NCBI RefSeq assembly: GCF_029201545.1
Contig: NZ_CP104007.1
Location: forward strand, 310,001-374,000
Direction: 5' to 3'
Length of the DNA stretch: 64,000 nucleotides
From: Devosia sp. FJ2-5-3
Lineage (GTDB): Bacteria > Pseudomonadota > Alphaproteobacteria > Rhizobiales > Devosiaceae
Below are positions 34,360-54,220 of this stretch, piece after piece. Made by a program: the position numbers and the translations under genes. Numbering within the stretch: the stretch's first letter is position 1; each line of letters starts with the position of its first letter. Under the pieces are notes generated by a model, which made no database searches, was not told the DNA's origin, and saw nothing but the letters and a program-made list of their open reading frames with translations.

Positions 34360-34373
34360 AACTGTTGACAGTT
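34360..34373. promoter_or_regulatory. Island operator, site A (binding-protein gene)
   Basis: Palindrome AACTGTTGACAGTT, 105 bases before the SBP start at 34478, in the 296-base gap after the tRNA. The core CTGTTGACAG is shared with four other promoter regions in the island. Candidate site of the GntR/FCD regulator at 44965. Confidence 0.8.
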
Positions 34374-34477
34374 ATCAGTTTAGTTGCATACTTGCTGGGA
34401 CGTCCTCTGAGAGGGGTGTCGCGGTCTGCGAGGAGCAGACGGGCCGGCTGTGCACGAAACCAAAGGGAATGTCGTAA

Positions 34478-35983
34478 ATGAAGCATTTTGGGCGAATCCA
34501 CGGCCTGGCCGTAGCAGCATTGTTTGGCGCCTCGTCTCTCCTGGCCCTGACGGCAGCGGCATCTGCCGCGCCGGAAGAACTCACCATCGCGCTTTCCGGT
34601 GACATGCCGACGCTCGACCCGAGCAAGGACACATCGCCGATCGGGCTGAACATGCGCTTGAACGTGTTCAACGCGCTTACTGAAATCGGCCGCAACGGCG
34701 AAGTCATCCCCCAGATGGCCGAAAGCTGGACCGTCAGCGACGATCTGATCGAGTGGACCTTCAAGCTGCACGAAGGCATCAAGTTCCACGATGGCTCGTT
34801 GATGACCTCCGACGACGTGGTTTTCACCACGGAGAAGGTGCTGGCCGACGACACGTCTCCGGTGCGATCGTTCCTGCGCCTGGTCAAGACCGTCGAGGCC
34901 GTCGACGCGAACACCGTCAAGTTCTCGCTGACCCAGCCCTATGCGATGTTCGATCGCCAGATCAAATATCTCTACGTCATGTCGCGCGCCTATTTCGACA
35001 AGGTCGGCGATACCGGCTACGCAACCGCTCCGATCGGCACCGGCCCATACCGCCTGGCTGAATGGGTCAAGGATGACCGCATGGTCCTGGAAGCCTTCCC
35101 GGACTATTTTGGCGGCGAGCCAGCGGTCAAGAAGGGCATTTTCCGTCCAATCCCGTCCGACGCAGCCCGCGCAAATGCCGTCCTCTCCGGCGAAATCGAC
35201 CTGGTGCCTAGCATTGCGCCGTCGCTGATGGACATGGTGGGTGGAAACCCGGATGTGCGCGTTGCCATTGCACCGGGCTACCGCGTCACCTTCCTTGAAA
35301 TGAACCCGGATCTGGCCCCGTTCGACAATGCCAAGATTCGTCAGGCCGTGGACGTTGCCATCGACCGGCAGGCTATTGCCGAGCGTCTGATGCGCGGCAC
35401 CGGCAAGGCAACCGGCAGCCTTATCCCGAGCTCCAATGGTGGTTTCGACGCCTCGCTCGAGCCGACTGCCTATGATCCGGCACTCGCCAAGCAGCTCGTC
35501 CAGGAAGCCGGCTATGATGGCACGCCCATCCCGCTCGACTACCCCAACAACAACTATCCGATGGCCAATGAAGTGGCGCAGGCCATTGCGGGCTATTTGA
35601 CCGAGGCAGGGCTCAAGGTCCAGCTCAACCCGATGGAGTTCACGGCGTTCTTCCCCGCCTGGGTCCAGAACAAGATGAGCCCGATCTACTACTTTGCCTA
35701 CGGCTCGTCGCAGTTCCACGCCGAGAACATTCTCGCAACCGTGTTCGAATCCGGCGGCCATCTCCGTCGCATCAACCCGGAGATCGACGTCCTCGTCAAA
35801 GCGCAGCGCGAAGAGCTCGACGAGACCAAGAAGAACGAGATGATCTCGCAGATCTGGCAGATCGCTGCCGAAGAGCGTCAATTCATCCCGCTCTACGAGA
35901 TGCAGCAGGTCTACGCGGTCAAGGCCGACATCGAATACACGCCTTACCCCGATGAGGTCGTGCGTCTTTATACATTCGAGTAG
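34478..35983 (+). CDS. ABC transporter substrate-binding protein, peptide/opine type
   Basis: 501 residues. Signal peptide with cleavage near AASAAPEE, then an SBP_bac_5 (DppA/OppA) fold: GDMPTLDPSKDTSPIGLNMR, WTFKLHEGIKFHDGSLMTSD and ATAPIGTGPYRLAEWVKDDR. This family binds peptides, opines, nickel chelates and other ligands in the periplasm. There is no permease beside it; the DppB/C/DF-type membrane parts lie at 49271-53060 behind the same operator, so they are the likely partners. ATG at 34478 follows AAGGGAA. A terminator follows directly. Confidence 0.93.
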   Translation: MKHFGRIHGLAVAALFGASSLLALTAAASAAPEELTIALSGDMPTLDPSKDTSPIGLNMRLNVFNALTEIGRNGEVIPQMAESWTVSDDLIEWTFKLHEGIKFHDGSLMTSDDVVFTTEKVLADDTSPVRSFLRLVKTVEAVDANTVKFSLTQPYAMFDRQIKYLYVMSRAYFDKVGDTGYATAPIGTGPYRLAEWVKDDRMVLEAFPDYFGGEPAVKKGIFRPIPSDAARANAVLSGEIDLVPSIAPSLMDMVGGNPDVRVAIAPGYRVTFLEMNPDLAPFDNAKIRQAVDVAIDRQAIAERLMRGTGKATGSLIPSSNGGFDASLEPTAYDPALAKQLVQEAGYDGTPIPLDYPNNNYPMANEVAQAIAGYLTEAGLKVQLNPMEFTAFFPAWVQNKMSPIYYFAYGSSQFHAENILATVFESGGHLRRINPEIDVLVKAQREELDETKKNEMISQIWQIAAEERQFIPLYEMQQVYAVKADIEYTPYPDEVVRLYTFE

Positions 35984-36005
35984 TTCTGCTCGAATTGGAT
36001 CTCGA

Positions 36006-36036
36006 ATGGGCTGGCCGTGTGCCAGCCCATTTTTCT
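36006..36036 (+). terminator. Terminator of the binding-protein gene
   Basis: The stem ATGGGCTGGC / GCCAGCCCAT with TTTTCTTT begins 23 bases after the stop. Confidence 0.9.
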
Positions 36037-36080
36037 TTGGGGTCCTTGAGGGTGGCAAAGGCCACGTGCTTACAAAAACA

Positions 36081-36108
36081 AAAAAGCCCGGCTGAGCCGG
36101 GCTTTTTG
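36081..36108 (-). terminator. Terminator of the minus-strand lyase-hydantoinase-oxidase operon
   Basis: Stem AGCCCGGC / GCCGGGCT, A-rich on the left and T-rich on the right, so it can act in both directions. It lies 15 bases beyond the minus-strand stop at 36123. Confidence 0.88.
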
Positions 36109-36122
36109 ATATCAAGATGAAG

Positions 36123-37700
36123 CTATTGATCGAGGGTGAAGAGATTGCCAGGGCTCATAATGCCGCTGGGGTCAAACTGCTTCTTGAGAGCGTCGAACAG
36201 CGTCCGGACAGCGGGAGAGCGCGTCTCCATGAAGGGATATTTGCGGCCGATCTGCATGTGCACACCGCCAAGCTGGCGCCATTCCGCCAAGATGTCCTTG
36301 GTCAGGATTTTCAGCCGTTCGCGCGTTTTTGGGTTGTCGGGCCGTTGGCGCAGGGCAGCTTTCTGCGCCTCGCTCATGAAGCTGAGGTGAAGTGGCAGTG
36401 GCGCGTCCGACCAGCGGATCAGAGTTTCAACCCCAACGCCGGAGGGGCCGTGGGTCGACAGCAGGTAGCCGTGTGAAATCCCGTGCGCCTTGAGGTCTGC
36501 CGCGTCGCGCTGAAAGATCGCTTCGGTGCGGTTAAAGCACTCGCCCCCGGAGGAATTGGGCACGACTGTGTGCAACCACGCCATCCGCTTGCCCGACGGT
36601 GTCAGGAGCCCCGACATGGGCGGAAAAGGCATGTTGCGCATGATGCGCGGGATAGAGGCGGGGATCTCCCGACCACCGGCATCGCGGGCTATTGCGCGCA
36701 CGCGCCGCGCACGGCGATCTGCATCGTGCTGGTCGCCACCTTCGACCACGGTATTCATCAGGTAGCCAATTTTCTTGGCAAAGCGCCGGCCGTGCAAGGC
36801 GATCAGCGTTGCGTCACGCACGCCGGCGGTGAGGCTGGACGCGCCCTTGACGACCTCGAGAGCGATCTTGATGTCAGCGATCAGGCCTTCGCTGACCATG
36901 CGGGACTGGGCCGAGAACGGATCCATACCCTGGCATTCGGTGGCCAGCATTTCGGCCCCGATCTGGCCCATCGCGCCCATTTGGGCGGCCGGGTCGTCGA
37001 AGGAGAAGCTGACATAAGCCTCGCCTTTCGAGGCTGGGATGAGCTGCAGGGTGATCGAAGTCTTGATGCCGAAGGCGCCACAGTCTCCGAGGAAGATGCC
37101 GGTGATGTCGGGGCCGTAGTTCCGGAAGAAGGGGCCGGTGTTTTCGCCCCCTGCGGATCCGGTCACCACCACCTCGCCCGCGCCTGTGACAACCCGCATG
37201 CCGATGACGGATTCTGCAGAGCTGCCGCGAGAGGCAGAGCCGAAGAATTTTGCGCCTTGCGAGACCGAGGCGCCAATAGTCGCGTGGCGTCCGGAGAACG
37301 TGCCCCAGAACGGGGTCGTCAGGCCCAGAGGGCGCAGGGCTTCGCGCAGGGCGGACCAGGTGACGCCGGGCTGCACCGTTACATAGCGGTCTGTCGCGTT
37401 GAGCTCGATGATGGCATCGAGCCCCGACATGTCGATGAGCGCGCATCCGGGGCGGTTCGGCAGATAGCCCGAGCTGTAGGACAGACCGCCACCCCTGACA
37501 TAGAGCCCGACGCCAAGATCCCGCGCGGCGCTCACCAGCTTTACGACGTCGTCCTCGTCACGCGGGCGGAACACAGCTTCCGGGGCGTGGGGGGCATTAT
37601 AGAAGACGTCGGTGGCGTATAGCGCCAAATCTTCCGTAACGACCGGAACATTAGACAGGCTGGCGATCAAGCGAGCCACGGGGGCAGGGGTGGTGCTCAC
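36123..37700 (-). CDS. FAD-binding oxidoreductase (VAO/PCMH family)
   Basis: 525 residues. The FAD-binding PCMH domain covers about 35-225, with VRGGGLSYSSGYLPNRPG and YVTVQPGVTWSALREALRPL. A FAD-linked oxidase C-terminal domain follows, ending FDPSGIMSPGNLFTL, as in glycolate/lactate dehydrogenases and related phenol oxidases. It probably oxidises an alpha-hydroxy acid or alcohol. A GTG start at 37700 was chosen because TAGGAAAT lies upstream, ten bases past the previous stop. It is the last gene of a three-gene minus-strand operon. Confidence 0.88.
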   Translation of the reverse strand: MSTTPAPVARLIASLSNVPVVTEDLALYATDVFYNAPHAPEAVFRPRDEDDVVKLVSAARDLGVGLYVRGGGLSYSSGYLPNRPGCALIDMSGLDAIIELNATDRYVTVQPGVTWSALREALRPLGLTTPFWGTFSGRHATIGASVSQGAKFFGSASRGSSAESVIGMRVVTGAGEVVVTGSAGGENTGPFFRNYGPDITGIFLGDCGAFGIKTSITLQLIPASKGEAYVSFSFDDPAAQMGAMGQIGAEMLATECQGMDPFSAQSRMVSEGLIADIKIALEVVKGASSLTAGVRDATLIALHGRRFAKKIGYLMNTVVEGGDQHDADRRARRVRAIARDAGGREIPASIPRIMRNMPFPPMSGLLTPSGKRMAWLHTVVPNSSGGECFNRTEAIFQRDAADLKAHGISHGYLLSTHGPSGVGVETLIRWSDAPLPLHLSFMSEAQKAALRQRPDNPKTRERLKILTKDILAEWRQLGGVHMQIGRKYPFMETRSPAVRTLFDALKKQFDPSGIMSPGNLFTLDQ

Positions 37701-37710
37701 GAAGGATTTC

Positions 37711-39099
37711 CTAGGTGTTGAGGCTGCGGCGCAAATAGCGCCCATGTCCGGCGGTGGATCCGACCATTTGACCGTCACGGTAGACCTCGACGCCCCGAAC
37801 GAGCGTGTTGGTGACCCGGCCGGTGAATTCGCGCCCCTCGTAGATGCTGTATCCGGCGTTGCTCTTCACGTCGTCCCGCTGCAGCGTATAGGTCGCTTCA
37901 AGATCGACCAGCACGATATCGGCATCAAAGCCCGGTGCCAGGGCGCCCTTGCGGCCCCAGAGGCCCATTGCCTTGGCGGGTTTTTCGCTGACCAGCGAAA
38001 CGATGCGCTCGATGGAGACGCCACGACGATGGTGTCCCTCGGTCAGCATGACCGGCAGGATAGTCTCGACGCCCGGGCAGCCGGGGGAGGCCTTCCAGAT
38101 GCCGCCCTCCTTGCTGGCAAAGCCGCGATGGACGTGGTCGGAAGCGATGGTGTCGATCGCGCCGGACTGGATGCCCCGCCACAGGGCATCGCAATCTTCT
38201 GCCTCGCGAAGCGGCGGGTTGATCTTGCCGACACTGCCCTTTTCCCAGGATGTGTCGTGGGTGAGGTAGTGCGGGCAGGTTTCGACGGTGATGTCGACAC
38301 CATCCCTGCGGGCTGCGATGGCTGCGTCGAGGGCCTCGCCCGAAGAGGTGTGCACCATATAGATCGGCGCGCCGGCGGCATGGGCGAGGCGTGCGGAGCG
38401 CTGGATGGCATCGGCCTCCACGAAGGGCGGACGGGACTCGTTCCACGATGCCAGTCCGTTGGTGCCCTCAGGATCCTTTGCCATCACCTGATTGCGCAGA
38501 AAGTGCACGACCTCGATGTTTTCGGGATGCGGGCAAACGAGGCCGCCGTGCTCGGCGCAGGCCTGGGCGAGACGGAAGAGGAAGGCGTCGTCGATGTCGG
38601 GCAGGCCGAGGCGCTGGCCCTCGCCGCCGCGATTGTTCATGAAGATCTTGAAGCTGGGGACGCCGTAATCGGCGATATAGGCCGGGATCTGCGCCAGCTG
38701 TTCTTCGGTGGAAATAATCAGGTGGTAGCCGAAATCGATATGGCTGCCTGCTTCCGTCACAGTCCGGATCTCGTCGAAGATCTCCGAATGTTCCTTGGCC
38801 GAGAGTATGTAGGGAATGATGGTGGTCACGCCGCCGCTGGCAGCGGCGGACGTTTCGCTCTGGGCGTCTGCGGCTTCGCGCGGGAACGAGATGTCGTTGC
38901 CATGCCCGAGATGCACGTGAACGTCGAGCGCCCCTGGCAGCACGAGGCGGCCGGTGGCATCGAGGCGGTCGCTTGCCTGCGCGTCGCCGCCGGGCTCGAG
39001 GATTGCGGCCACGCGACCATCCCTCACGGCGATGTCGAGCAGGGCAGGAGGCTGGCCAGGCAAGGCAACCATGCCGCCATGAATAATCAAATCATACAT
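37711..39099 (-). CDS. Hydantoinase/dihydropyrimidinase-type amidohydrolase
   Basis: 462 residues. A cyclic amidohydrolase: HVHLGHG (metal ligands), the Lys of FKIFMN that is carboxylated in this family, HTSSGEAL, ETCPHYL and ASDHVH. All metal-site residues are present, so it should be active. Family members open hydantoins, dihydropyrimidines, allantoin or dihydroorotate; the loops that set specificity cannot be read by eye. GAGGAGAG precedes the ATG. Second gene of the operon, between the lyase and the oxidase. Confidence 0.9.
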   Translation of the reverse strand: MYDLIIHGGMVALPGQPPALLDIAVRDGRVAAILEPGGDAQASDRLDATGRLVLPGALDVHVHLGHGNDISFPREAADAQSETSAAASGGVTTIIPYILSAKEHSEIFDEIRTVTEAGSHIDFGYHLIISTEEQLAQIPAYIADYGVPSFKIFMNNRGGEGQRLGLPDIDDAFLFRLAQACAEHGGLVCPHPENIEVVHFLRNQVMAKDPEGTNGLASWNESRPPFVEADAIQRSARLAHAAGAPIYMVHTSSGEALDAAIAARRDGVDITVETCPHYLTHDTSWEKGSVGKINPPLREAEDCDALWRGIQSGAIDTIASDHVHRGFASKEGGIWKASPGCPGVETILPVMLTEGHHRRGVSIERIVSLVSEKPAKAMGLWGRKGALAPGFDADIVLVDLEATYTLQRDDVKSNAGYSIYEGREFTGRVTNTLVRGVEVYRDGQMVGSTAGHGRYLRRSLNT

Positions 39100-39131
39100 G
39101 TGTCTCTCCTCAACTGGCCACTGCCTGCGCT

Positions 39132-39995
39132 TCAGGTGTAGCGCTTCTCCATTTCGTCGAAGTCGCCCTTGCGGACGGCGTTCTGGCGCATTTCAAAGCT
39201 TGCGAGCTGGTCCTTGACGGTTTCCAGCGATCCGGTCTTGAGCAATTCGCCCAGGACATTGTGCACGGACAAAAGCGCTGCCTGCAGTGCGGCATTGGCA
39301 TAGAGCCCGGCGCCGAAGCCGTATTCCTTCAGTTTCGCCTGGTCGACCGGGGGCGTCTTGCCGCCAAAGACGTAGTTGAAGATCTGTGGGACCGGAAGCT
39401 CGCGGGCCACGCGTTCGATATCCTGCAGGTTCACGGGGGCCTCGACGAAGGTTACGTCGGCACCCGCCTCGATATAGCGGTGTGCACGGTCCATCGCATC
39501 TTCGATGCCGTTGACCGCGATCGCGTCGGTGCGCGCGATGATCTGGAAATCACCGTCCTGACGGGCGTCAGCGGCGGCCTTGATCTTCTGGATCATCTCA
39601 TCGGCAGGAATGACGCCCTTGCCGGAGAAGTGCCCGCACTTCTTGGGGAAGTTCTGGTCTTCGAGCTGTATGCCGGCGGCACCTGCGCGTTCATAGGTGC
39701 GCACGGTCCGGTAGGTGTTCACCGGATTGCCGAAGCCGGTGTCACCGTCAACGAGCAAGGGGATGTTTACAGTATCGGCGATGACGGCGATGTGCTGCGC
39801 CATTTCCGACATGGTGATGAGTCCGACGTCAGGGACACCGAGATACATATTGGTAACACCAGCGCCGGTGATATAGGCGCATTCATAACCCAACTCTTGG
39901 ATTACGTTGGCGAAAAGCGCATTCGGCGCTCCCGGCATAAGCACGGCTTCTCGGCGAGCCAAAATGCTTTTGAGCCGTGTCGCTGGTTTGGTCAC
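39132..39995 (-). CDS. Isocitrate lyase/PEP mutase family lyase
   Basis: 287 residues. A TIM-barrel lyase of the PEP-mutase/isocitrate-lyase superfamily: VDGDTGFGNPVNTYRTVR (Mg site), QLEDQNFPKKCGHFSGKGVI with the catalytic Cys of KKCGH, RTDAIAVNG and FGGKTPPVDQAK. The KKCGH loop indicates C-C bond lyase rather than phosphonate chemistry; methylisocitrate-, dimethylmalate- or oxaloacetate-type substrates are possible. A GTG start at 39995 with AAGGAGA upstream was chosen. First gene of the operon, divergent from the 40148 operon across operator B. Confidence 0.88.
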   Translation of the reverse strand: MTKPATRLKSILARREAVLMPGAPNALFANVIQELGYECAYITGAGVTNMYLGVPDVGLITMSEMAQHIAVIADTVNIPLLVDGDTGFGNPVNTYRTVRTYERAGAAGIQLEDQNFPKKCGHFSGKGVIPADEMIQKIKAAADARQDGDFQIIARTDAIAVNGIEDAMDRAHRYIEAGADVTFVEAPVNLQDIERVARELPVPQIFNYVFGGKTPPVDQAKLKEYGFGAGLYANAALQAALLSVHNVLGELLKTGSLETVKDQLASFEMRQNAVRKGDFDEMEKRYT

Positions 39996-40086
39996 GCTTG
40001 TCTCCTTGCGTCCGCATAATGAGCCGTTCCCACAACGGCGCATCCGATCTAGATATGACTAGACACAATCTCTGACGTATGTTGTA

Positions 40087-40100
40087 AACTGTCAACAGTT
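40087..40100. promoter_or_regulatory. Island operator, site B (divergent promoter)
   Basis: AACTGTCAACAGTT, the same palindrome read on the other strand, between the starts at 39995 (minus) and 40148 (plus). One site could control both operons. Confidence 0.82.
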
Positions 40101-40147
40101 GATGGCGCATGAGGTCCTTGTGAGGGCGAATTTCGGAGGAATAGCGC

Positions 40148-41794
40148 ATGACTGTGTTAGAGATGCACCCTCGGGCCTCCGCATCCGCCGTGCGAGGATT
40201 CGTGACGGTCGATGGCCGTCGCCTCCACTACATCCGTCAGGGCAATGGCCCCGCAATTGTCATGCTGCATGCCAGCCCCTGTTCGGCAAAGGTCATGTCG
40301 GACCTGCAGCTGCGCTGGGGAGCCGAGTTCACCACCTTTGCCTTCGACCTCCCGGGATTCGGACTGTCTCAGCCTCCAGACGGGCATATCACCATCCCGG
40401 TTCTTGCCGAGATAATCATCGCTGGAATGCGCGCGCTCGGCATCGAGCAGGCTGCTCTGTACGGGCGGCACACCGGCGCCAGCGTTTGCCTCGAGATGGC
40501 AGTGAACCACCCAGCGATGGTTTCCATGCTGCTGACTGACGGCCTGCCGATCTTTGCAGCGCCCTATACCGACGAGCGGCTTGCCCAATATCTTCCTCCG
40601 ATCGAACCGCGTTGGGATGGTGGGCATCTCACCTGGGCCTATTTCCGCTATCGCGAGCAGCACATGTTCTGGCCGTGGGATTATTCGGTCCTGGAGCACC
40701 GCGCCGACGCCGACCTGCCCGATGTCCAGTTCCTGCATCGCGGTGCAGTGGAGTTGCTCGAGGCCGCCGATACCTATGCCCAGACCTATCAGGCCGCATT
40801 CCGCTACGAGACCTTACCCTTGGTCGACAAGGTGGACGTGCCCGTCTTCTGGGGCAATCGCCCGGGGGATAGCCAGTTCAAGACCATTCCGCGTTATCCC
40901 GCTGCCGCACCCATCCATGTCATGGACCGGGATCCAAAGATTGCCCTTGAGCAGGAACTCGAATTGCTGCGCCTGCACAAGGCCGCAGGTGTCGTTCCAG
41001 ATTATTTCTCGGGCTTCGAGGCTTCGGCGCTGCCAATGTCTCTTGAGGACTATATCGTTACCCGTCACGGCTGTGTCCGGGTCATTGGCGCCGGATTGCA
41101 GCGCGATGGCGTGCCGCTGATCTTTCTGCACGACCTGCCGGGCGGCATTGACCTGCACCGCGAAGAAATCGAGCGCCTCGCCGAGGATCGTCCGGTGGTT
41201 GCCTTGGAACTGGCGGGCAATGGCGAGTCCTTCGTGGCAAGCGCGCCCAGCCATGCAATATGGCTCGAGCAGATCGAGGATGTGCGGACCACCCTTGGTT
41301 GGGGCGAAGTGGCGCTTTATGCGCATGGGACGTCTGCGGCCCTCGCCCTCGATTTCGCTGGTCGGCATGCCGATCAGGTTGGAGAACTCATCCTGCGTTC
41401 GCCGCCAGTTCTTTCTGCCGACGAGCGCGCGCTGTTCAGCGCCCAGTATGCGCCCGATATCACCCCGAGTGAGGATGGCGGCTATTTGCTGCGTCTCTGG
41501 CACCATCTGCGCGACCAGGAATTGTGGTATCCGCATTTCCGCAGGGATCATGCGTCACGCCGCACCGCGCCGCCGCGTATCGATCCTGCATGGCTCACCC
41601 GTCGGGCGGTGACCCTGCTCAAGCAGCCTGAGCATTACGCGCCGATCTGGCAGGCTGTGCTTGGTCATGATTTGGGTGCGGCACTCGGCGGCATCTCGGT
41701 GCCTGTGCGTGTGATCGTCGATCCCAGCGACATTTTCGCCGGCACTGCTGCCGGCCTTGCAAGCGGGTCTGTGCCCGCGGCCGTTTCAGAATAG
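40148..41794 (+). CDS. Tandem two-domain alpha/beta-hydrolase fold protein lacking Ser nucleophiles
   Basis: 548 residues, twice the usual size. Two alpha/beta-hydrolase domains lie at about 15-275 and 300-540. Domain 1 has the oxyanion-type stretch VMLHASPCSAKV and AFDLPGFGLSQPPDGH, but the nucleophile elbow reads GRHTGAS (106-112) with His at the usual Ser position. Domain 2 has the equivalent AHGTSAA (392-398) with Gly there. So neither domain has the canonical GxSxG serine. It may be a lyase or esterase with another mechanism, or a binding protein. First gene of the plus operon, just after operator B. Confidence 0.82.
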   Translation: MTVLEMHPRASASAVRGFVTVDGRRLHYIRQGNGPAIVMLHASPCSAKVMSDLQLRWGAEFTTFAFDLPGFGLSQPPDGHITIPVLAEIIIAGMRALGIEQAALYGRHTGASVCLEMAVNHPAMVSMLLTDGLPIFAAPYTDERLAQYLPPIEPRWDGGHLTWAYFRYREQHMFWPWDYSVLEHRADADLPDVQFLHRGAVELLEAADTYAQTYQAAFRYETLPLVDKVDVPVFWGNRPGDSQFKTIPRYPAAAPIHVMDRDPKIALEQELELLRLHKAAGVVPDYFSGFEASALPMSLEDYIVTRHGCVRVIGAGLQRDGVPLIFLHDLPGGIDLHREEIERLAEDRPVVALELAGNGESFVASAPSHAIWLEQIEDVRTTLGWGEVALYAHGTSAALALDFAGRHADQVGELILRSPPVLSADERALFSAQYAPDITPSEDGGYLLRLWHHLRDQELWYPHFRRDHASRRTAPPRIDPAWLTRRAVTLLKQPEHYAPIWQAVLGHDLGAALGGISVPVRVIVDPSDIFAGTAAGLASGSVPAAVSE

Positions 41795-41814
41795 AAATTT
41801 CATCGGAGAATATC

Positions 41815-45627: not shown

Positions 45628-45635
45628 CGCCTGAT

Positions 45636-45649
45636 AACTGTTGACAGTT
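45636..45649. promoter_or_regulatory. Island operator, site C (isochorismatase-fold gene)
   Basis: AACTGTTGACAGTT, eight bases after the regulator's stop and about 57 before the next start. It suggests a separate promoter for that gene within the operon. Confidence 0.82.
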
Positions 45650-45706
45650 CACACTTTTGGCACTTGAATCGGGCAAGTCATTAGCCGCGATTTCATGGAG
45701 TCAGCA

Positions 45707-46478: not shown

Positions 46479-47972
46479 TTAGAGCGGCGCCGCCACGGAT
46501 TTGGTTTCGAGATAGGCGTTGAACATCTCTTCGCCCTTCTCGCGCCCCCAGCCGGACTGGCGGAAGCCGCCGAATGGCAGCGCACTGTCGCCGACGAAGT
46601 GCCGGTTGATACCGATCGTGCCAGCGCGGACCCGTGCCGCCATCTTGTGTGCCAGGGAGAAATCCTTGGTGAAGATACTGGCAGCGAGGCCATAGACGCT
46701 GGAGTTGGCCTCTGCGGCGATGGCGTCGAGATCGTCGTCGCCAAAGCGCAGTGCCGATAGGACCGGACCGAACACTTCTTCGCGCACAATGCTCGAGTCA
46801 GGGGTCAGATTGGCCAGGATGGTCGGCTGATAGTAATAGCCGTCGCCCTCGATGGCGGATGCGCCGGTGATAACCGAAGCGCCATCCCGAACCGCGCGCT
46901 CGGTCATGCCGGCAACGCGGTCACGGTGCGCCGCAGTGATCAGCGGGCCCATATTGGTTGCGGGATCGAGGCCGTAGCCGACCTTGAGCTTGCCAGCGGC
47001 TTCTGCAACGCCTTCCAGCACGCGGTCGAAGGCCTTCTCGTGCACGTAAAGGCGTGAACCGGCGGTGCAGATCTGGCCGGCGCCGGAGAAGATGCCCGCG
47101 GCGATGGCCGGGATGGCGGCTGAGAGGTCGGCATCGGGAAAGACGATGACCGGACTCTTGCCGCCCAGTTCAAGGGTGACGCGCTTGAAATTGGACTGCG
47201 CTGCCGCAACGGCGATGGCGCGGCCGACCCCGGTCGACCCGGTGAAGGCGATCTTGTCGACGTCCTGATGCGACGACAGGGCGCTGCCCACTTCGGCGCC
47301 GCCGAGGACGACGTTGAACACACCCTCGGGAATGCCGGCTTCGATGGCCAGTTCAGCCAGATAGATGGCGGTAAGAGGTGTCTGCTCTGCCGGCTTGAGC
47401 ACAATGGTGCAACCGGTTGCCAGCGCGGGCGCGAGCTTCCACGCCGCCATCATGAGCGGGCCGTTCCACGGCACGATCTGGGCGACGACGCCCACGGGAT
47501 CCCGTAGCGTATAGGCATGCCATTCGCCCGGAGCGGACACTGGAATGGTGCGGCCCAGCAGCTTTGTCGGCCAACCGGCAGCATATCGGAGAAGGTCCAC
47601 CGATGTGCCGATGTGACCGAGCTTGGCGGCGCCGATCGGCAGTCCGGCGTTAAGTGATTCCAGTTCCGCCAGGACCTGGGTGTGTTCCTCGATGAGATCG
47701 GCGAATTTCCACATCACGCGCGAGCGCATGTTGGGCTTCATATCCCGCCATGCGCCCTTGGTGAAGGCGGCTCGCGCTGCGCTGACGGCGCTGTCGACAT
47801 CGGAGCTGGTGCCGGTCGGAACCTGCGTCAGCAGGCTGCCGCGACCCGGATCCATGACGTTGGACTGGGCTGCGCCGGCGGGGATGACGATCTTGCCGTT
47901 GATGAAGTGGCCGAGCTGGCGCGCCAGAAAGGCGCGCGTTGCCGGCTGCAACTCGGGGAGTTGTGCAGTCAT
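46479..47972 (-). CDS. NAD(P)-dependent aldehyde dehydrogenase
   Basis: 497 residues, ALDH superfamily, full length. VAQIVPWNGPLMMAAWKLAP (cofactor site), GSTGVGRAI, the catalytic Glu in VTLELGGKSP and the nucleophile Cys in GAGQICTAGSR. The substrate is not predictable beyond a small aldehyde. It lies three bases downstream of the alcohol dehydrogenase gene; together they could oxidise an alcohol to a carboxylate. Confidence 0.93.
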   Translation of the reverse strand: MTAQLPELQPATRAFLARQLGHFINGKIVIPAGAAQSNVMDPGRGSLLTQVPTGTSSDVDSAVSAARAAFTKGAWRDMKPNMRSRVMWKFADLIEEHTQVLAELESLNAGLPIGAAKLGHIGTSVDLLRYAAGWPTKLLGRTIPVSAPGEWHAYTLRDPVGVVAQIVPWNGPLMMAAWKLAPALATGCTIVLKPAEQTPLTAIYLAELAIEAGIPEGVFNVVLGGAEVGSALSSHQDVDKIAFTGSTGVGRAIAVAAAQSNFKRVTLELGGKSPVIVFPDADLSAAIPAIAAGIFSGAGQICTAGSRLYVHEKAFDRVLEGVAEAAGKLKVGYGLDPATNMGPLITAAHRDRVAGMTERAVRDGASVITGASAIEGDGYYYQPTILANLTPDSSIVREEVFGPVLSALRFGDDDLDAIAAEANSSVYGLAASIFTKDFSLAHKMAARVRAGTIGINRHFVGDSALPFGGFRQSGWGREKGEEMFNAYLETKSVAAPL

Positions 47973-47975
47973 GGA

Positions 47976-49067
47976 TTAGACCTCGGCGTGAAAGTCGATG
48001 ATCTGGCGCACAGGCGTGCCGCCATAGAGGTTCTTGAAGCCATCGTTGACCTGCTCCAGTTCGATCCGGTCGCTGATCAGGTGATCGAGCTTGAGGCGGC
48101 CCTGCTTGTAGAAGTTGAGCAGGTTCGGGATGTCGACGCGGAACTGGTTCGAACCCATGGACGAGCCCTGGATCTTCCGGTCCTTGATGAACAGCGAGCC
48201 TTCGAACTCAAGCTTGGAGCCGGGCTTGAACATGCCGAGCAGCGTGGCGGTGCCGCCCATGCGCAGCATGCGGAAGGCTTGGTCCGCAGTGACCTGGAGG
48301 CCAAGTGCTTCAAACGAATAGTGCACGCCGCCCTTGGTCAATTCCATCACCTGGCCGACGGGGTCAATGTCGGTGGCGTTGATAACGTCGGTCGCGCCGA
48401 GCTGCTTGGCGAGCTCGAGCTTGCTGTCCAGACGGTCGATGGCGATGATGCGTCCGGCACCCGCCAGCAGCGCACCGGAAATAACGGAGAGGCCAACGCC
48501 GCCGCAACCGATCACGGCGACAGTCGAGCCGGGCTTCACCTTGGCGGCATGGATCACGGCGCCAACGCCTGTCAGGACACCGCAGCCGACGAGGGCAGCG
48601 CGGTCGAGCGGCAGGTCACGGTCGATCTTCACCACGGCGTTTTCATGCACCAGCATCTGCTCGGCGAAGGCGGAGAGGTTGGAGGACTGATGAATCACCT
48701 CGCCATTGAGGAACATGCGGCGGGCAACGCCGGCGGGCAGCTTGGGTGTGTCGGATTCGCACAGGCTGGGGTGGCCGGTGGTGCACTGCGCGCAGGTGCC
48801 GCAGAAGACAGAGAGACAGCCAACGACATGATCGCCCGGCTTCACGTGGGTAACATCCTCGCCCACCGCTTCCACGATGCCCGACGCCTCGTGACCAGGA
48901 ATATAGGGCATTGGATGAGGATAGGTGCCGTCAGCGAAGTGAAGATCTGAGTGGCAGATGCCGGCGTAAGCTGTGCGGATAAGCACTTCACGGCTCTTCG
49001 GCTTCTCGATCGTGACGTTCTCGATCGTCATCGGCTCGCCAGCTTTCCAAACGACTGCTGCTTTCAT
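47976..49067 (-). CDS. Zinc-dependent alcohol dehydrogenase (MDR family)
   Basis: 363 residues. Catalytic zinc ligands Cys in GICHSDLHFADG, GHEASG and Cys in LVGCGVLTGVGA; structural zinc Cys in CGTCAQCTTGHPSLC; NAD fold VAVIGCGGVGLSVISGALLA. The overall form resembles class III-type enzymes and the NDMA-dependent group, without strong evidence for either. First gene of the ADH-ALDH operon; the 203-base divergent gap with operator D separates it from the transporter operon. Confidence 0.93.
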   Translation of the reverse strand: MKAAVVWKAGEPMTIENVTIEKPKSREVLIRTAYAGICHSDLHFADGTYPHPMPYIPGHEASGIVEAVGEDVTHVKPGDHVVGCLSVFCGTCAQCTTGHPSLCESDTPKLPAGVARRMFLNGEVIHQSSNLSAFAEQMLVHENAVVKIDRDLPLDRAALVGCGVLTGVGAVIHAAKVKPGSTVAVIGCGGVGLSVISGALLAGAGRIIAIDRLDSKLELAKQLGATDVINATDIDPVGQVMELTKGGVHYSFEALGLQVTADQAFRMLRMGGTATLLGMFKPGSKLEFEGSLFIKDRKIQGSSMGSNQFRVDIPNLLNFYKQGRLKLDHLISDRIELEQVNDGFKNLYGGTPVRQIIDFHAEV

Positions 49068-49163
49068 GTCCTGTCCTTTTTCTGTAGACCGTCGCTCTGA
49101 GCGATGCCCCTGTGGGGCAGCTCACCACTCCGGAATACGCTAAAGGCGAAACCTGTCATTGTC

Positions 49164-49177
49164 TACTGTTGACAGTT
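49164..49177. promoter_or_regulatory. Island operator, site D (transporter and ADH promoters)
   Basis: TACTGTTGACAGTT, one change from the consensus, between the divergent starts at 49067 (minus) and 49271 (plus). Confidence 0.8.
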
Positions 49178-49270
49178 TTCGGATCGCGTTTTAGCCTTTC
49201 TCATGTTCAGCTTGGCATGGAGTGAATTGCGCAAAGGCAATTTCGGTCCAGCTGGCGTGTAGGAGGCGAT

Positions 49271-50188
49271 ATGGCAGGCTTTATCTTCAAGCGGCTGTTG
49301 CAGTCAGTTCTGACGATAGCGGGAGTGATTACCGCGGCGTTTTTCCTGACGCGACTGGCGGGCGATCCGTCCGTTTTGCTCTTGCCGCCGGAGGCATCGC
49401 CGGAAGACGCCGCGCGACTGCGCTCGGCGCTCGGCCTCGATCAGCCGCTGTTCATCCAGTACCTGCTGTTCATGGGAAATGCGATGACCGGTGATTTCGG
49501 CATGTCCTTACGACAAGCCGTGCCCGCCATGGATCTGGTACTCGAGCGTGTCCCGGCAACCATGGAACTCGCCGTCGCATCATTTGCAGTCGGCATCGGA
49601 TTGGCGTTTGTCCTCGGTATTTTGATGCGATTGACGCGCCAGGGATGGGTGCGTGACGTCATTACCTGGGCGGCGCTTGGGCGGCAGGCCATTCCGGTCT
49701 TTTCGTTCGGCCTGGTGATGATCCTCATATTCTCGGTCTGGCTCAGGTGGCTGCCGTCCTACGGACGCGGTACATTTGCGCACCTCATACTTCCGGCGCT
49801 GACCCTGGGGACGTACGAGTTGGCGCTCTATCTGCGCCTCTTCAATGCCTCCCTCTCGGCCGAGCAGCGCAACGACTATGTCCGCACCGCCTATGCAAAG
49901 GGGCAGGGGCGCATCCAGGTCCTTCTCAAGCACATGCTGCCCAATGCCCTGCTGCCCCTGATCACCGTAGCCGGCATCAATCTGGGCATGCTGCTGGGCG
50001 GGACGGTGGTTACAGAGACCGTTTTCAGCTGGCCCGGCGTCGGCCGCCTGATCGTGCAATCGGTCAGCCAGCGCGACTTCCCCGTCATTGTGGCCGGGGT
50101 GTTCCTCATCTCGCTCGTCTTTGTCGTCATCAACCTGATCGTCGATATCCTCTACGGATTTCTCGATCCCCGCGTGAGGCTCAATTGA
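49271..50188 (+). CDS. ABC transporter permease, DppB type
   Basis: 305 residues. Six hydrophobic helices and the EAA loop NDYVRTAYAKGQGRIQVLLK for contact with the ATPase, then LGGTVVTETVFSWPGVGRLI. Peptide/opine/nickel family. GGAGG precedes the ATG. Coupled to the next permease by TGATG. The likely binding protein is the separate gene at 34478. Confidence 0.94.
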   Translation: MAGFIFKRLLQSVLTIAGVITAAFFLTRLAGDPSVLLLPPEASPEDAARLRSALGLDQPLFIQYLLFMGNAMTGDFGMSLRQAVPAMDLVLERVPATMELAVASFAVGIGLAFVLGILMRLTRQGWVRDVITWAALGRQAIPVFSFGLVMILIFSVWLRWLPSYGRGTFAHLILPALTLGTYELALYLRLFNASLSAEQRNDYVRTAYAKGQGRIQVLLKHMLPNALLPLITVAGINLGMLLGGTVVTETVFSWPGVGRLIVQSVSQRDFPVIVAGVFLISLVFVVINLIVDILYGFLDPRVRLN

Positions 50189-51018
50189 TGGCCCGAATTT
50201 CATTTTCCCAGGCGACGGCCGGCGTGCTGCTGCTTGTTATGGCCATCCTGGTCATCCTCATTCCGCTGCTGCCGGGCTATGATCCCTATACCCAGGATCT
50301 GGGAGCGACATTGTTGCCCATGGGCGGGACTTCCTTCGATGGGAAGACCTTCCTGCTGGGAACCGACACGCTGGGCCGCGATCTTCTTTCCCGGCTGGCT
50401 CTTGCCGGTCAGGTGTCCACGCTGATCGGTCTTGGCGCCGTGGCCGTGAGCCTGGTCCTGGGTGTCACCCTCGGCCTCATCGCTGGATATTTTCGCGGTC
50501 CTGTCGAAGCCGTAATCATGGGCCTTGCGGACCTCCAGCTCTCCATCCCGCGGGTGCTGCTGCTCATCGCTGTTACCGCCATCGTCGGGCCGAGTGTTTT
50601 CAACCTGGCCATTCTGCTTGGCCTGACCAGTTGGGTCGCCTATGGCCGCGTGGCGCGCGGGATGACCCTGAGCCTGCGCGAGCGTGAGTTCATTCTCTCT
50701 GCCCGCGTCCAGGGGGCGTCCGCGACCTGGAACATACGCCAGCATCTGCTGCCCAATGTGCTGCCACAAATGCTGATCGTGGGCTCCTACGAATTCGGCA
50801 TGATCATTGTGCTCGAGGCTTCTCTCAGCTATCTCGGTCTCGGTGTTCAACCGCCACTCCCCAGTTGGGGCATGATGGTTTCGGAAGGGCAGAACTATCT
50901 TTCCCTCGCGCCGCACCTGGCCATGCTCCCGAGTATCGCCCTGTTCATTCTGGTCGCCGGATTCCAGTTCCTGTCCCAGGCCTTCACCAAGGAAAACGAT
51001 CTGGAGATGGTGTCATGA
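50188..51018 (+). CDS. ABC transporter permease, DppC type
   Basis: 276 residues with the family N-terminal segment and GTDTLGRDLLSRLALAGQVS, the EAA region FILSARVQGASATWNIRQHL and SLSYLGLGVQPPLPSWGMMV. ATG at 50188 overlaps the stop of the first permease; the C-terminus overlaps the ATPase start by four bases. Confidence 0.94.
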   Translation: MARISFSQATAGVLLLVMAILVILIPLLPGYDPYTQDLGATLLPMGGTSFDGKTFLLGTDTLGRDLLSRLALAGQVSTLIGLGAVAVSLVLGVTLGLIAGYFRGPVEAVIMGLADLQLSIPRVLLLIAVTAIVGPSVFNLAILLGLTSWVAYGRVARGMTLSLREREFILSARVQGASATWNIRQHLLPNVLPQMLIVGSYEFGMIIVLEASLSYLGLGVQPPLPSWGMMVSEGQNYLSLAPHLAMLPSIALFILVAGFQFLSQAFTKENDLEMVS

Positions 51019-53060
51019 CGCTTGCAACAGCGCCTGCCGTTTCGACGGCTCCTGCTACCGTCCTGAGCGTTCGAAACCTCTCCATCAACGCCAAAGCGGC
51101 CGATGGCGGCGTCATCGAACTGGTCCGCGATGTCTCCTTCGACGTCTATGAGAACGAAGTCCTCGGCATTGTCGGCGAGTCCGGTTCGGGCAAGAGCCTG
51201 ACCATGCTGGCCGTGCTCGGCCTGCTTGGCCCCGGCCTCAGCATTGCCGGAGGCAGCATCGTACTGCGCGGCCAGGAGTTGACGAGCCTCAGCTTTGCCG
51301 AACTGCGCAAGGTCCGGGGCAAGTCGGTCTCGATCATCTTCCAGGACCCACTGACCACGCTGAACCCGGTGCTCAAGATCGGCGACCAGATCGCCGAGGC
51401 GATCCGGCTGCACAATCCGAAAAAATCGGGCGCCGAGATCCAGGCGCGCGTCATCGAGTTGCTGTCGCTCGTGGGTATCCCCAACCCCGAACGCCGTGCG
51501 ACCCAGTTTCCGAACGAGTTTTCGGGCGGCATGCGCCAGCGCGTGGTCATCGCCATGGCCATGGCCAATGAGCCGGACCTGCTGATTGCCGACGAGCCGA
51601 CCACGGCGCTCGACGTCACTATCCAGGCCCAGGTGATGAAAGTGTTGGCCGAAGTGCGCGCCCGTACCGGCGCGGCCATGGTGCTGATCACCCACGACCT
51701 TGGACTCGTCTCCGAATATGCGGATCGCCTCGCGGTCATGTATTCCGGCCGCGTCGTCGAACAGGCGCCCGGCAGCAAGCTGTTCGATACGCCTGAGCAC
51801 CCGTATACCGCGGGCCTGATCGCCAGCCTGCCCAAGGTCGACCAAAAGGTTTCCGCGCTCTATTCGATCCCGGGCTTTGTTCCCGATCCCCGCAAGCGTC
51901 CGCAGGGCTGTGCGTTCCAGCCGCGTTGCGCCATCGGCCAGAACCGGCCCGAATGCAGCGCGTCGGACCCGGCATTGCGCGCCACCGACAGTGATCGCAA
52001 CGTGGCGTGCCATTTCGCCGAGGTGACCCCTGACTGGCTGGCCGAACAGCGGGCACTGAGTGCCGCGCCGGTCGATCATGTCGCTGCAAACGATGCGGAT
52101 ACCCAGCTGAAATCGGCGCTCAAGGTCGAGCACCTCAACAAGGTCTTCAACGTGCGCGGAAAGGCATTCCGCCCGCACAAGCTGCATGCCCTGCGCGACA
52201 TTTCCTTCGATCTCAAGAGCGGCAAGACGCTCGGGATTGTGGGCGAATCCGGTTGCGGCAAGTCCACGTTGGCGCGCGTGCTGCTGCGCCTGGCCGAGGC
52301 CAGTGGCGGGGAGGTCTATCTCAACGGCGAGCCATTCTTCACGCTCCGCGGACAGGCCCTGCGTAACAAGCGCAAGGAACTGCAGGTGGTCTTCCAGGAC
52401 CCCTATTCCTCGCTCGATCCGCGCATGACCATTCATGACGTGATCGCCGAGCCGCTGCGGATTTCGGGTAATTACAGCCGTGCGCGGGTCAACGAGCTGC
52501 TCGAATATGTGGGTCTGCCGCCTGAGGCCGGTCTGCGCCGTTCGCCCGAATTTTCCGGCGGACAGCGCCAGCGTATCGCCATTGCGCGCTCGCTTGCGCT
52601 TAATCCGGATGTGCTTATTCTGGACGAAGCGGTGTCGGCGCTGGACGTTTCGATCCAGGCGCAGGTCATCAACCTCTTGATGAAGCTCCAGAAAGACCTC
52701 GGACTGACCTATGTGTTCATCTCGCACGATCTGTCCGTGGTGCGTCACATCTCCGACGAGGTGGTGGTGATGTATCTTGGGCGGATCATCGAGCAGGGCA
52801 AGACCGAGGACGTGTTCGACAGCCCGTCCCACCCCTACACACGGGCGCTCCTCGCCGCGATCCCGCAGATCGGTGGCAGGTCTGATACTGACGGGCTGAT
52901 CGCCAAGGGCGATTTGCCCAATCCGATGAACCCGCCATCCGGCTGTGCTTTCCGCACCCGGTGTCCGATGGCCGTCGAACTTTGCGCCCAGTCCGAGCCG
53001 GCCCTTGTGGCCCATGGCAAGGCGGACCATCTGGCGGCCTGCCACTTCGCCCGGGCATAG
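51015..53060 (+). CDS. Fused dipeptide-type ABC transporter ATPase (DppD-DppF)
   Basis: 681 residues with two complete ATPase domains in one chain. Domain 1 (about 15-330): Walker A GESGSGKS, signature FSGGMRQRV, Walker B LLIADEPTTALD. Domain 2 (about 360-680): Walker A GESGCGKS, signature FSGGQRQRI, Walker B LILDEAVSALD. Each ends with an oligopeptide-type C-terminal domain with Cys clusters (CAFQPRC, CAFRTRC). Fused ATPases of this kind are known in the GsiA/YejF group. Drives uptake with the two permeases above. Confidence 0.94.
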   Translation: MTLATAPAVSTAPATVLSVRNLSINAKAADGGVIELVRDVSFDVYENEVLGIVGESGSGKSLTMLAVLGLLGPGLSIAGGSIVLRGQELTSLSFAELRKVRGKSVSIIFQDPLTTLNPVLKIGDQIAEAIRLHNPKKSGAEIQARVIELLSLVGIPNPERRATQFPNEFSGGMRQRVVIAMAMANEPDLLIADEPTTALDVTIQAQVMKVLAEVRARTGAAMVLITHDLGLVSEYADRLAVMYSGRVVEQAPGSKLFDTPEHPYTAGLIASLPKVDQKVSALYSIPGFVPDPRKRPQGCAFQPRCAIGQNRPECSASDPALRATDSDRNVACHFAEVTPDWLAEQRALSAAPVDHVAANDADTQLKSALKVEHLNKVFNVRGKAFRPHKLHALRDISFDLKSGKTLGIVGESGCGKSTLARVLLRLAEASGGEVYLNGEPFFTLRGQALRNKRKELQVVFQDPYSSLDPRMTIHDVIAEPLRISGNYSRARVNELLEYVGLPPEAGLRRSPEFSGGQRQRIAIARSLALNPDVLILDEAVSALDVSIQAQVINLLMKLQKDLGLTYVFISHDLSVVRHISDEVVVMYLGRIIEQGKTEDVFDSPSHPYTRALLAAIPQIGGRSDTDGLIAKGDLPNPMNPPSGCAFRTRCPMAVELCAQSEPALVAHGKADHLAACHFARA

Positions 53061-53065
53061 AGGGC

Positions 53066-54040
53066 GTGTCGGGGGGAGAGGGCGTCGAAGAATGGGGCGA
53101 GGGCATAAGAAGCCTTCGCCTGCCCATGCCGGCCTTTGGCGGCGTCAACGCGCTGCTCATCGGCGAAAAGGGCAATCATGCCATTGTCGATACCGGCTTG
53201 CCGAATGCGGCAACGGCACAGGTCTGGGCTCAGATAGACGAGGGTTGGGCCAGTGGGGCGCGCCAGATCGTCTGCACCCATATGCATATCGACCACATTG
53301 GCCAGGCCGGCCCGCTGCTGGCGCGCAGTGGTGCGAGCTTCCTGATGAATGCGGTTGAACATGCCGATGCCGTGCGGCTGACCGGGATGACGCCGGCCCA
53401 GCGACTGGTGGAACTCCAGGCTCTCTGGGCCCGGAATGGCTTTGATGCCAGCCTCGCGCGGCTGCCGTCGGATTATTCGGTCATGGCGCCCTTTCCGACC
53501 AGCTTCCAGCCTCTTGCCCATGGCGACCAGGTTGATCTCGGGGGCATTGGCTTTGAGGTCCATATCGGCGGCGGGCACTCCCTGGCGCCTGCCTGTTTCT
53601 ATTCGCGCGGGCGGAAAATCCTCATTGCCGGGGATCAGCTGCTCTCCGGGTCGGGACCGCAAATCGTGGTCCAGAGCGATGATCCCGACTATGACGCCAT
53701 GGGCGCCTATCTCGATTTTCTTGAGCAAATGCAGGCCCTTCCGGAGGACACCATGGTTCTGCCCGGGCATGGCCAGAAGCTGCCGCTCGGCGCGACGATC
53801 ACCCGGATCCGCCAGGGCCATCTGGCGCGGCTCGAGCGCGTCAAGGCTGTGGTGACCGAGTGGATGAGCTGCGCAGACATGGTTCCGCTCGTCTTTTCCG
53901 ACAGGGCGCTGGCCCATCTGCGCAGCCGCATGCCCCACATGATGCCGGCGCTGGCCAATTATCTGGCCCTGCGCGGGCAATTGTCCCGTCGTGTGAATGA
54001 CGCGGGAATTGTCCTTTATGGTCCCGTCCAGGGGCTTTGA
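53066..54040 (+). CDS. Metallo-beta-lactamase fold hydrolase
   Basis: 324 residues. MBL fold with CTHMHIDHIGQ (HxHxDH), His in IGGGHSLAPACF, Asp in IAGDQLL and His in LPGHGQKL, so the binuclear zinc site is complete. The C-terminal extension (about 235-324) resembles the winged-helix-like end of LACTB2/thiolesterase-type proteins. The start is uncertain: GTG at 53066 is close behind the ATPase stop and has no well-spaced ribosome site. Last gene of the transporter operon; it may hydrolyse a thioester or a lactone of the pathway. Confidence 0.82.
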   Translation: MSGGEGVEEWGEGIRSLRLPMPAFGGVNALLIGEKGNHAIVDTGLPNAATAQVWAQIDEGWASGARQIVCTHMHIDHIGQAGPLLARSGASFLMNAVEHADAVRLTGMTPAQRLVELQALWARNGFDASLARLPSDYSVMAPFPTSFQPLAHGDQVDLGGIGFEVHIGGGHSLAPACFYSRGRKILIAGDQLLSGSGPQIVVQSDDPDYDAMGAYLDFLEQMQALPEDTMVLPGHGQKLPLGATITRIRQGHLARLERVKAVVTEWMSCADMVPLVFSDRALAHLRSRMPHMMPALANYLALRGQLSRRVNDAGIVLYGPVQGL

Positions 54041-54064
54041 CAGAAGTGTCGCATTGGCGGCGAA

Positions 54065-54084
54065 TTGGTTAGCAGACTGTTAGC
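54065..54084 (+). repeat. 20-base recurrent motif, copy B
   Basis: TTGGTTAGCAGACTGTTAGC, 24 bases beyond the MBL stop and preceded by AAGTGTCGCATTGGCGGCGA. Copy C at 59205 has nearly the same preceding bases, so the similarity extends to about 45 bases. Confidence 0.82.
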
Positions 54085-54088
54085 TTTG

Positions 54089-54122
54089 ACGGGCCCGAAA
54101 CGCTATTCGGGCCCGTTTTTCG
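54089..54122 (+). terminator. Intrinsic terminator of the dpp-type transporter operon
   Basis: Stem ACGGGCCCGAA / TTCGGGCCCGT with a T run, five bases after motif copy B. Confidence 0.9.
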
Positions 54123-54206
54123 TTCATGCGGAGGCATGAGGGGCTGCAGCAAGGTCTGACATCGTCACCTGCTCGAATTTCGGGGCGTCACAAAGGATTA
54201 CATGAA

Positions 54207-54220
54207 AACTGTTGACAGAT
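54207..54220. promoter_or_regulatory. Island operator, site E (second transporter)
   Basis: AACTGTTGACAGAT with the invariant core CTGTTGACAG, 40 bases before the permease start, followed at once by a second half-like GACTGTTGAT. It brings the second ABC operon into the same regulon. Confidence 0.78.

Follow-up and report, generated by a model that had tools for sequence, protein, structure and literature searches.

A probable local repressor and its shared operator, which seems to be fused to the -35 box, in a catabolic gene island of Devosia sp. FJ2-5-3

We analyzed a stretch of 64,000 nucleotides from the soil bacterium Devosia sp. FJ2-5-3 (contig NZ_CP104007.1, positions 310,001 to 374,000), referred to below as the window and numbered from its first letter, in which an island of catabolic and transport genes carries one palindrome at five places. 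The GntR-family protein encoded at 44965, which has an FCD domain, is most probably a local repressor acting through five operators of ~20 base pairs (bp) on seven transcription units with 21 genes; the operators would lie over the -35 element, and a metabolite would release the repressor. Since the palindrome travels with this repressor in distant relatives that lack most of the island, a single local repressor very probably switches the island.

Operator sites in the window and the genome

A preliminary description of this DNA had placed the palindrome at 34360, 40087, 45636, 49164 and 54207, and a 14-mer was found at each of these positions. It is exact (AACTGTTGACAGTT) on the forward strand at 34360 and 45636 and exact at 40087, where it reads on the reverse strand; the sites at 49164 and 54207 are the variants TACTGTTGACAGTT and AACTGTTGACAGAT, respectively. 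As had been described, CTGTTGACAG is common to all five. With up to three mismatches, the window contains 11 strand-matches compared with 1.24 expected, a number reached by none of 100 shuffles. The bare 10-mer with one mismatch is far less striking (7 matches in the window, equaled in one of 100 shuffles).

When the whole genome (4,192,992 bases, one contig) was scanned, places with no or one mismatch to AACTGTTGACAGTT were found only at the five island positions. The preliminary claim that such sites do not occur outside the island thus holds genome-wide, and equally good sites are not scattered through the chromosome. To describe the operator, 80 unique sites were used from the window and from loci L065-L084, L165-L176, L183 and L185-L201 (L, fetched locus; G, relative genome), with 53 non-redundant representatives that are less than 60% identical downstream. 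The operator is longer in the relatives, reading G-N2-AACTGTTGACAGTT-N2-C over ~20 bp. The outer G, three bases before the arm, is present in 77% of the 53 non-redundant sites and the mirror C in 58%; the arms served as search pattern, the outer G and C did not. Compared with the extended form GNNAACTGTTGACAGTTNNC, the five window sites show 0, 0, 1, 1, and 1 mismatches over 16 specified positions, and every other genome place listed shows 3. The operators at full length and one weaker relative are:

34357..34376, + strand: operator 1 (GTC AACTGTTGACAGTT ATC), with TTGACA at 34365-34370 toward the binding-protein gene
40084..40103, - strand: operator 2, in a divergent gap, with TTGACA toward the - strand lyase operon
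45633..45652, + strand: operator 3, directly 3' of the gntR stop codon, with TTGACA toward the cysteine hydrolase gene
49161..49180, + strand: operator 4, in a divergent gap, with TTGACA toward the Dpp operon
54204..54223, + strand: operator 5, ahead of the Pot-type transporter operon
43907..43920, + strand: weak or decayed operator-like GACAGTCGACAGTA ahead of the amidohydrolase_2 gene, differing at 3 of 12 arm positions

Operator 1 was aligned with 10 further sites ahead of related binding-protein genes. At the position equivalent to 43907, a site with one mismatch is present in four relatives (G015, G028, G074, and G090).

A sixth exact CTGTTGACAG, not mentioned in the preliminary description, was found at 54428 within the gene that opens the second transporter operon. 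This PotB-like gene contains ACCTGTTGACAGAT at 54426-54439, which is 219 bp downstream from operator 5. The intragenic site might act as a partner in DNA looping, a role reported for such a site of the FCD repressor Atu1419. Its codons CTG TTG ACA are kept in G054 and G055, TTG is changed to TTA in G074, and G028 reads CTG CTA ACA, so that protein constraint could explain the conservation. A tandem CTGTTGATAG at 54223 was rejected as a second operator, because G055 differs from it by one base and G028 and G074 have lost it. Distant genome sites with two mismatches (L006, L008, and L009) were also rejected as further targets; two lie inside long open reading frames (ORFs) and the third is ambiguous.

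The regulator and its co-occurrence with the site

The 44965 protein matches PF00392 (3.9e-13) and PF07729 (4.1e-23), both over cutoff, and accordingly combines a GntR winged helix with a C-terminal FCD domain. Its closest solved chain is 7xp0 (residues 9-213, E value 3e-46, 90 of 204 aligned columns identical), named 'Probable transcriptional regulator' in the structure list, which we take to be PmiR, a sensor of 2-methylisocitrate. Both proteins contain the recognition helix ISRGPLREA. The best NCBIfam match, the phosphonate-utilisation regulator PhnR (TIGR03338), gave 92.5 bits and stayed below its equivalog cutoff of 271.5. By sequence, the regulator is a PmiR/PrpR-like FCD protein. As D136, H140, H185, and H207 fit the metal-site pattern D/N-x3-H, H, H and align with D/H/H/H of 7xp0, metal binding by the FCD domain is predicted as well.

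The genome encodes 27 FCD-domain proteins, and location in the island alone is therefore weak evidence for the choice of regulator. The original argument that the 44965 protein is the only regulator encoded there was insufficient for this reason; the assignment itself is supported by co-occurrence, displaced sites and helix residues.

Among 136 genomes of the family, 26 contain a GntR match at E ≤ 1e-30, which is at least 85% identical in 7 and 39-53% identical in 19. The 7 are exactly those genomes with at least three sites (41 places). A single place each was found in 25 of the other 129 genomes, and a reversed control pattern gave 23 matches over all 136; in one of the 25 (G069), the site adjoins a 53% identical GntR. 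The search of named genomes listed at least 79 loci, in which a site was defined by no more than one mismatch over the 12 positions of the arms. Among the loci listed, 17 of the 21 with a GntR of 51-90% identity carry a site (37 in total, within 357,843 bases; L065, L066, and L082 duplicate the records G074, G090, and G069), and none of the 58 with an FCD regulator of at most 39% identity does (0 sites in 1,093,280 bases).

Across 397 genomes of the order, GntR at E ≤ 1e-45 was found in 9 and a perfect site in 10, with both in 5 (hypergeometric p 4e-7, relatedness ignored). Each of the four genomes with GntR but no perfect site has a variant site in a fetched locus (L167, L172, L174, and L176). 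Of the five genomes in which a perfect site occurs and GntR does not reach this cutoff, three encode an FCD protein of 28-36% identity, located 0.1-2.4 kb from the site, that shares the DNA-contact residues S-R-G described below (L179, L181, and L182).

The site was also found where most of the island is missing. In L074, L075, and L077, sites lie directly before gntR, between it and the lyase gene, and lyase and amidase are the sole island enzymes found; the contig of L076 starts just before gntR and its site, and the sites in L165 and L170 adjoin GntR orthologues that are accompanied by little more of the island. G028 has its Pot operon ~180 kb away from the island, on the same contig, and the site before it is retained; in G055 and G054, a site precedes a second, paralogous binding-protein gene.

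G028 contains nine sites (L188, L191, L189, and L190), which are also found before another Dpp operon and a 362-amino-acid ORF. Pairs of sites beside gntR, 94-106 bp apart and some with two mismatches, were observed in L074 (9815/9909), L075 (9789/9895), L077 (9352/9458), and L084 (8246/8344); in the L074 pair, one TTGACA is directed at the lyase gene and the other at gntR.

To compare the recognition helices, eight DNA-contact positions from a table in PMC4494728 were aligned by hand, with a few genomes entering the counts twice. In GntR rows of at least 45% identity, these positions read A-S-R-G-P-R-P-R in 22 of 41 and include S-R-G in 39 of 41. Among 72 rows below 42% identity, 48 read DSHTPRHL or DSQTPRHL and four have S-R-G, all four from loci that were chosen for their perfect site (L177, L179, L181, and L182). 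By the same hand assignment, Arg48 in ISRGPLREA occupies recognition-helix position 38 (FadR Arg45), whose Arg contacts G according to the available part of that paper. The same part reports that Pro at position 40 avoids G/C at K of TKGT and that Arg at 28 prefers G/C there; the 44965 protein has Pro at 40 and Ala at 28, and its site has T at K. The palindrome form AACTGT-TG-ACAGTT agrees with the GT...AC of the FadR subfamily at a spacing of 2-3.

Promoter geometry and alternative explanations

The centre of the palindrome is TG/CA in 70 of the 80 sites and, being asymmetric, yields TTGACA on one strand. In 36 of the 53 representatives, the hexamer 16-18 bp downstream has A at position 2 and T at position 6, compared with 6% on the mirror strand; control windows gave a mean of 10.5% (maximum 21%) on the same strand and 12.6% (maximum 26%) on the mirror strand. 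Where a known island-type gene lies within 450 bp on one side only, TTGACA points toward it in 30 cases and away in 6 (p 7e-5, indicative); the remaining sites have genes on both sides (27), on neither (7) or another centre (10). The operator seems to double as a -35 box, a position which would imply repression by blocking RNA polymerase. In the accessible part of PMC4494728, the consensus centre of the FadR subfamily is GTM-N0-1-KAC. The TG centre breaks it on one side, which would be explained by the -35 role.

Several observations weigh against a local repressor with its operator over the -35 box. The sites were collected via arm matching, and the conservation of the arms is therefore partly by construction. 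The -10 is poor, with a mean of ~2.0 of 6 TATAAT matches at 16-17 bp (0.9-1.8 for the remaining distances) and four or more matches in only 13-14% of 70 sites, and six sites point away from their known neighbour. Within the family the regulator is inseparable from the enzymes, because the PaaK-like CoA (coenzyme A) ligase occurs in the same 7 of 136 genomes as the sites and GntR; only the distant loci break this tie. Among the 21 close loci, four lack a site with at most one mismatch (L073, which has a two-mismatch one, L078, L079 (5 kb only), and L085), and a two-mismatch match occurs in 6 of the 58 control loci. Such sites are also missing beside second copies or weaker relatives with a GntR of 44-49% identity (L166, L168, L173, and L184). 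In the order, G299 and G478 have a perfect site and no GntR match in the fetched 20 kb; in G421, the two best GntR matches lie on contigs other than that of the perfect site, and the FCD protein nearest to this site is 35% identical and has S-R-T instead of S-R-G. Moreover, the p values are indicative only, since related genomes are not independent.

Some of these points would also fit a palindrome that is the operator of another regulator, either one of the other 26 FCD proteins or a member of another family, with the island GntR being incidental. The size of the FCD repertoire, the lack of a site directly before gntR in the window, the linkage of GntR and island within the family and the two order genomes with a perfect site and no GntR match nearby could all be accommodated in this way. 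We nevertheless consider it improbable, as sites adjoin GntR orthologues in distant genomes with little other island (L074-L077, L165, and L170), are missing from all 58 loci of other FCD regulators and are tracked by the residues of the recognition helix. Ordinary strong sigma-70 promoters with a chance-palindromic TTGACA, and no island-specific regulator, would give the same promoter look of TTGACA and a -10-like hexamer at 16-18 bp. However, the outer G and C were not used for picking the sites and are not promoter elements, the 14-mer at no or one mismatch has no further occurrence in the genome despite its many promoters, and one and the same regulator accompanies it from genome to genome, which makes chance a very improbable explanation.

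FadR-type proteins can activate some promoters, and neither of the two divergent partner units is faced by a TTGACA, as might be expected if the FCD protein were an activator or dual regulator at these promoters. An operator on the presumed -35 hexamer is, however, expected to exclude RNA polymerase, and the relatives PA0797/PrpR (PMC9765439) and Atu1419 (PMC7797058) are described as repressors in the available parts of these papers; we attach little probability to activation.

In the repression that we propose, the protein encoded at 44965-45627 would bind the extended operator as a dimer at five places and control two ABC transporters, hydrolases, dehydrogenases, a CoA ligase and a C-C lyase. 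Owing to its TG centre, the operator core would form a sigma-70 TTGACA that faces the regulated gene and is followed 16-18 bp later by the -10 element; repressor and RNA polymerase would then be rivals for these bases. The repressor would be freed, and the island turned on, by a metabolite of the pathway that is probably a small carboxylate and would be bound at the FCD metal site. We infer from sequence that the protein physically binds the operators, and also that it represses instead of activating and responds to a ligand. Joint control of the island, as proposed initially, is supported by the comparative tests for the units that TTGACA faces. For the divergent partners, namely the 40148 operon including gntR and the operon starting at 49067 (7 genes), we infer control from the shared gap only, because the operator lies upstream but its TTGACA faces the other way.

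Gene content, related systems and significance

The island comprises 21 genes from 34478 to 59177, annotated with Pfam and NCBIfam and grouped by strand and spacing, not by transcripts, into seven units. The preliminary count of at least seven units thus stood, and that of some 19 genes was too low. Operator 1 precedes the unit of the binding protein. Operator 2 lies between a - strand unit (lyase, hydantoinase-like amidohydrolase, and flavin adenine dinucleotide (FAD) oxidase) and a + strand unit (alpha/beta hydrolase, CoA ligase, enoyl-CoA hydratase, amidohydrolase_2, and gntR). The isochorismatase-family hydrolase forms the unit of operator 3. Operator 4 separates the + strand unit of DppB, DppC, DppDF and metallo-hydrolase from the - strand unit of alcohol and aldehyde dehydrogenases, and operator 5 precedes PotB, PotC, PotA, a binding protein and a serine hydrolase.

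34478..35983, +: SBP_bac_5 (Dpp/Opp-type) solute-binding protein (PF00496, 4e-91)
36123..37778, -: FAD_binding_4 oxidase/dehydrogenase, glycolate/lactate-oxidase-like (PF01565, 5e-28; closest solved chain 9qgz, 1.4e-24)
37711..39099, -: amidohydrolase, D-hydantoinase/allantoinase-like (PF01979; D-hydantoinase 1nfg, 1e-66)
39132..40043, -: C-C lyase of the isocitrate lyase/phosphoenolpyruvate mutase superfamily, KKCGH motif (PF13714; nearest, petal death protein 1zlp, 3e-60)
40148..41794, +: alpha/beta hydrolase with two hydrolase segments (PF00561, two stretches)
41815..43197, +: PaaK-like AMP (adenosine monophosphate)-dependent CoA ligase (PF00501; NF041878 140 bits, below cutoff)
43194..43937, +: enoyl-CoA hydratase/isomerase family (PF00378)
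43960..44868, +: amidohydrolase_2 family hydrolase (PF04909, 8e-39)
44965..45627, +: GntR family regulator of the FadR/FCD subfamily, proposed repressor (PF00392, PF07729; 7xp0, 3e-46)
45695..46399, +: isochorismatase-family cysteine hydrolase, N-carbamoylsarcosine amidase/maleamate amidase-like (PF00857; 3ot4, which we take to be maleamate amidohydrolase, 5e-35; 26st, 1e-30)
46479..47972, -: aldehyde dehydrogenase (PF00171)
47976..49067, -: zinc alcohol dehydrogenase (PF08240/PF00107)
49271..50188, +: DppB-like permease (PF00528)
50200..51018, +: DppC-like permease, start approximate (PF00528 in ORF 49747-51018)
50865..53060, +: fused DppD-DppF ATPase, start approximate (PF00005, two stretches)
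52961..54040, +: metallo-beta-lactamase-fold hydrolase, start approximate (PF00753)
54260..55123, +: PotB-like permease (PF00528 24.9 bits, just below cutoff 26.4; PotB model 132 bits)
55012..55905, +: PotC-like permease (PF00528)
55909..56961, +: PotA-like ATPase (PF00005, PF08402)
56974..58020, +: SBP_bac_8 solute-binding protein (PF13416)
58026..59177, +: beta-lactamase-family serine hydrolase/esterase (PF00144; NF052353 198.7 bits, below cutoff)

In the NCBIfam scans, transporter ATPase models alone reached their cutoff; for the island enzymes, none did among the best 25 rows. The FAD_binding_4 protein gave 86.8 bits with the glcD model (cutoff 567.9), and the amidohydrolase at 37711 gave 297.9 bits with TIGR02033 (cutoff 393.25), with allantoinase and dihydropyrimidinase models also below cutoff. 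Comparison of the core with distant loci named no substrate. Our best guess is that a cyclic ureide or imide would be converted to a 2-hydroxy diacid that is cut by the lyase, and that a small carboxylate would act as inducer. Lyase and amidase are the most recurrent genes, joined in many loci by the hydantoinase-like gene, and the transporters near this core vary (TRAP in L081, branched-chain-type ABC in L075). The putative lyase-amidase core of the pathway is spread beyond Devosia. The pairs beside gntR in L074, L075, and L077 come from a metagenome-assembled genome labelled Burkholderiales, from Enterovirga and from a metagenome-assembled genome labelled Methylorubrum, and their enzymes are 61-71% identical.

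Around the island, no simple insertion site was found in the searched relatives holding both flanking genes, the flanks being far apart or on different contigs. A second isochorismatase-family hydrolase (62267-62893, - strand) lies outside the island and has no site; an 83% identical copy is found downstream of the island in G055 (L194). For the ORF at 33052-34182 (- strand), the match starts only at residue 110-121 in 8 of 15 matching relatives, and four relatives matching from residue 1 carry in-frame stops, so its GTG start may be called too early.

Judged by the identity of 7xp0, the closest known system is presumably PmiR/PrpR of Pseudomonas aeruginosa, which we take to be the FCD GntR repressor of the 2-methylcitrate operon and the PA0797/PrpR of the mBio paper. 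The PrpR arm is ATTGT and differs from the AACTGT arm here. In the available parts of the literature, PA0797 is the repressor of the prp operon (PMC9765439) and PrpR sites have a 2-nucleotide GT..AC spacing (PMC4494728). This spacing, the ISRGPLREA helix and a methylisocitrate-lyase-family gene among the targets are shared with the island. However, the island lyase gave 267.6 bits with TIGR02317, below the prpB cutoff of 354.4, and is nearest to the petal death protein. Furthermore, no citrate-synthase or PrpD-family Pfam match was found among the 21 genes, and the island thus contains no methylcitrate operon (prpB, prpC, and prpD).

The 44965 protein matches 6z74, presumably the structure of Atu1419, only weakly (1e-9). 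According to the accessible part of PMC7797058, Atu1419 of Agrobacterium fabrum is a tetrameric FCD repressor of a hydroxycinnamate-degradation region with a metal site of N137, H141, H192, and H214. Both systems have an FCD regulator, a local multi-operon catabolic region, short palindromes at promoter elements and a degenerate palindrome inside a regulated gene; the Atu1419 palindrome ATGTATACAT, however, overlaps the -10 or sits between -10 and -35, whereas the operator here contains the -35. Central GT-N2-AC, sites in divergent gaps and weak extra boxes nearby are likewise found in the FadR-subfamily regulons of Suvorova et al. (2015; PMC4494728), as far as the available part of this catalogue goes. 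In contrast to that catalogue, the commonest centre here is TG, and five sites and seven units lie in one contiguous block.

A literature search that covered few subscription papers found no description of this regulon. The regulator type itself is already known, and the regulon is a well-supported member of it; the new detail is that its operator seems to lie over the -35. More tentatively, and with somewhat less than even confidence, we suggest that a catabolic pathway not yet described is guarded by a clade of PmiR-like repressors that is spread over Alphaproteobacteria and also present on one contig assigned by binning to Burkholderiales. Its constant core would consist of hydantoinase-like ring opening, an N-carbamoyl/maleamate-type amidase and a 2-hydroxyacid C-C lyase, with transporters swapped freely; the evolved asymmetric centre would make the palindrome the -35 of each target, so that one 14-bp element would provide a newly arrived operon with both a promoter part and its control.

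The island represents an unusually clean local regulon, in which a 25-kb block shares one almost invariant operator found nowhere else in the genome. With the regulator, a 20-bp operator and the gene set named, an uncharacterised catabolic pathway could be opened by a single deletion or a ligand screen. The fusion of operator and -35 box suggests that transporters and enzymes can be recruited into the regulon in one step and that the regulon can be found in other genomes from sequence alone.

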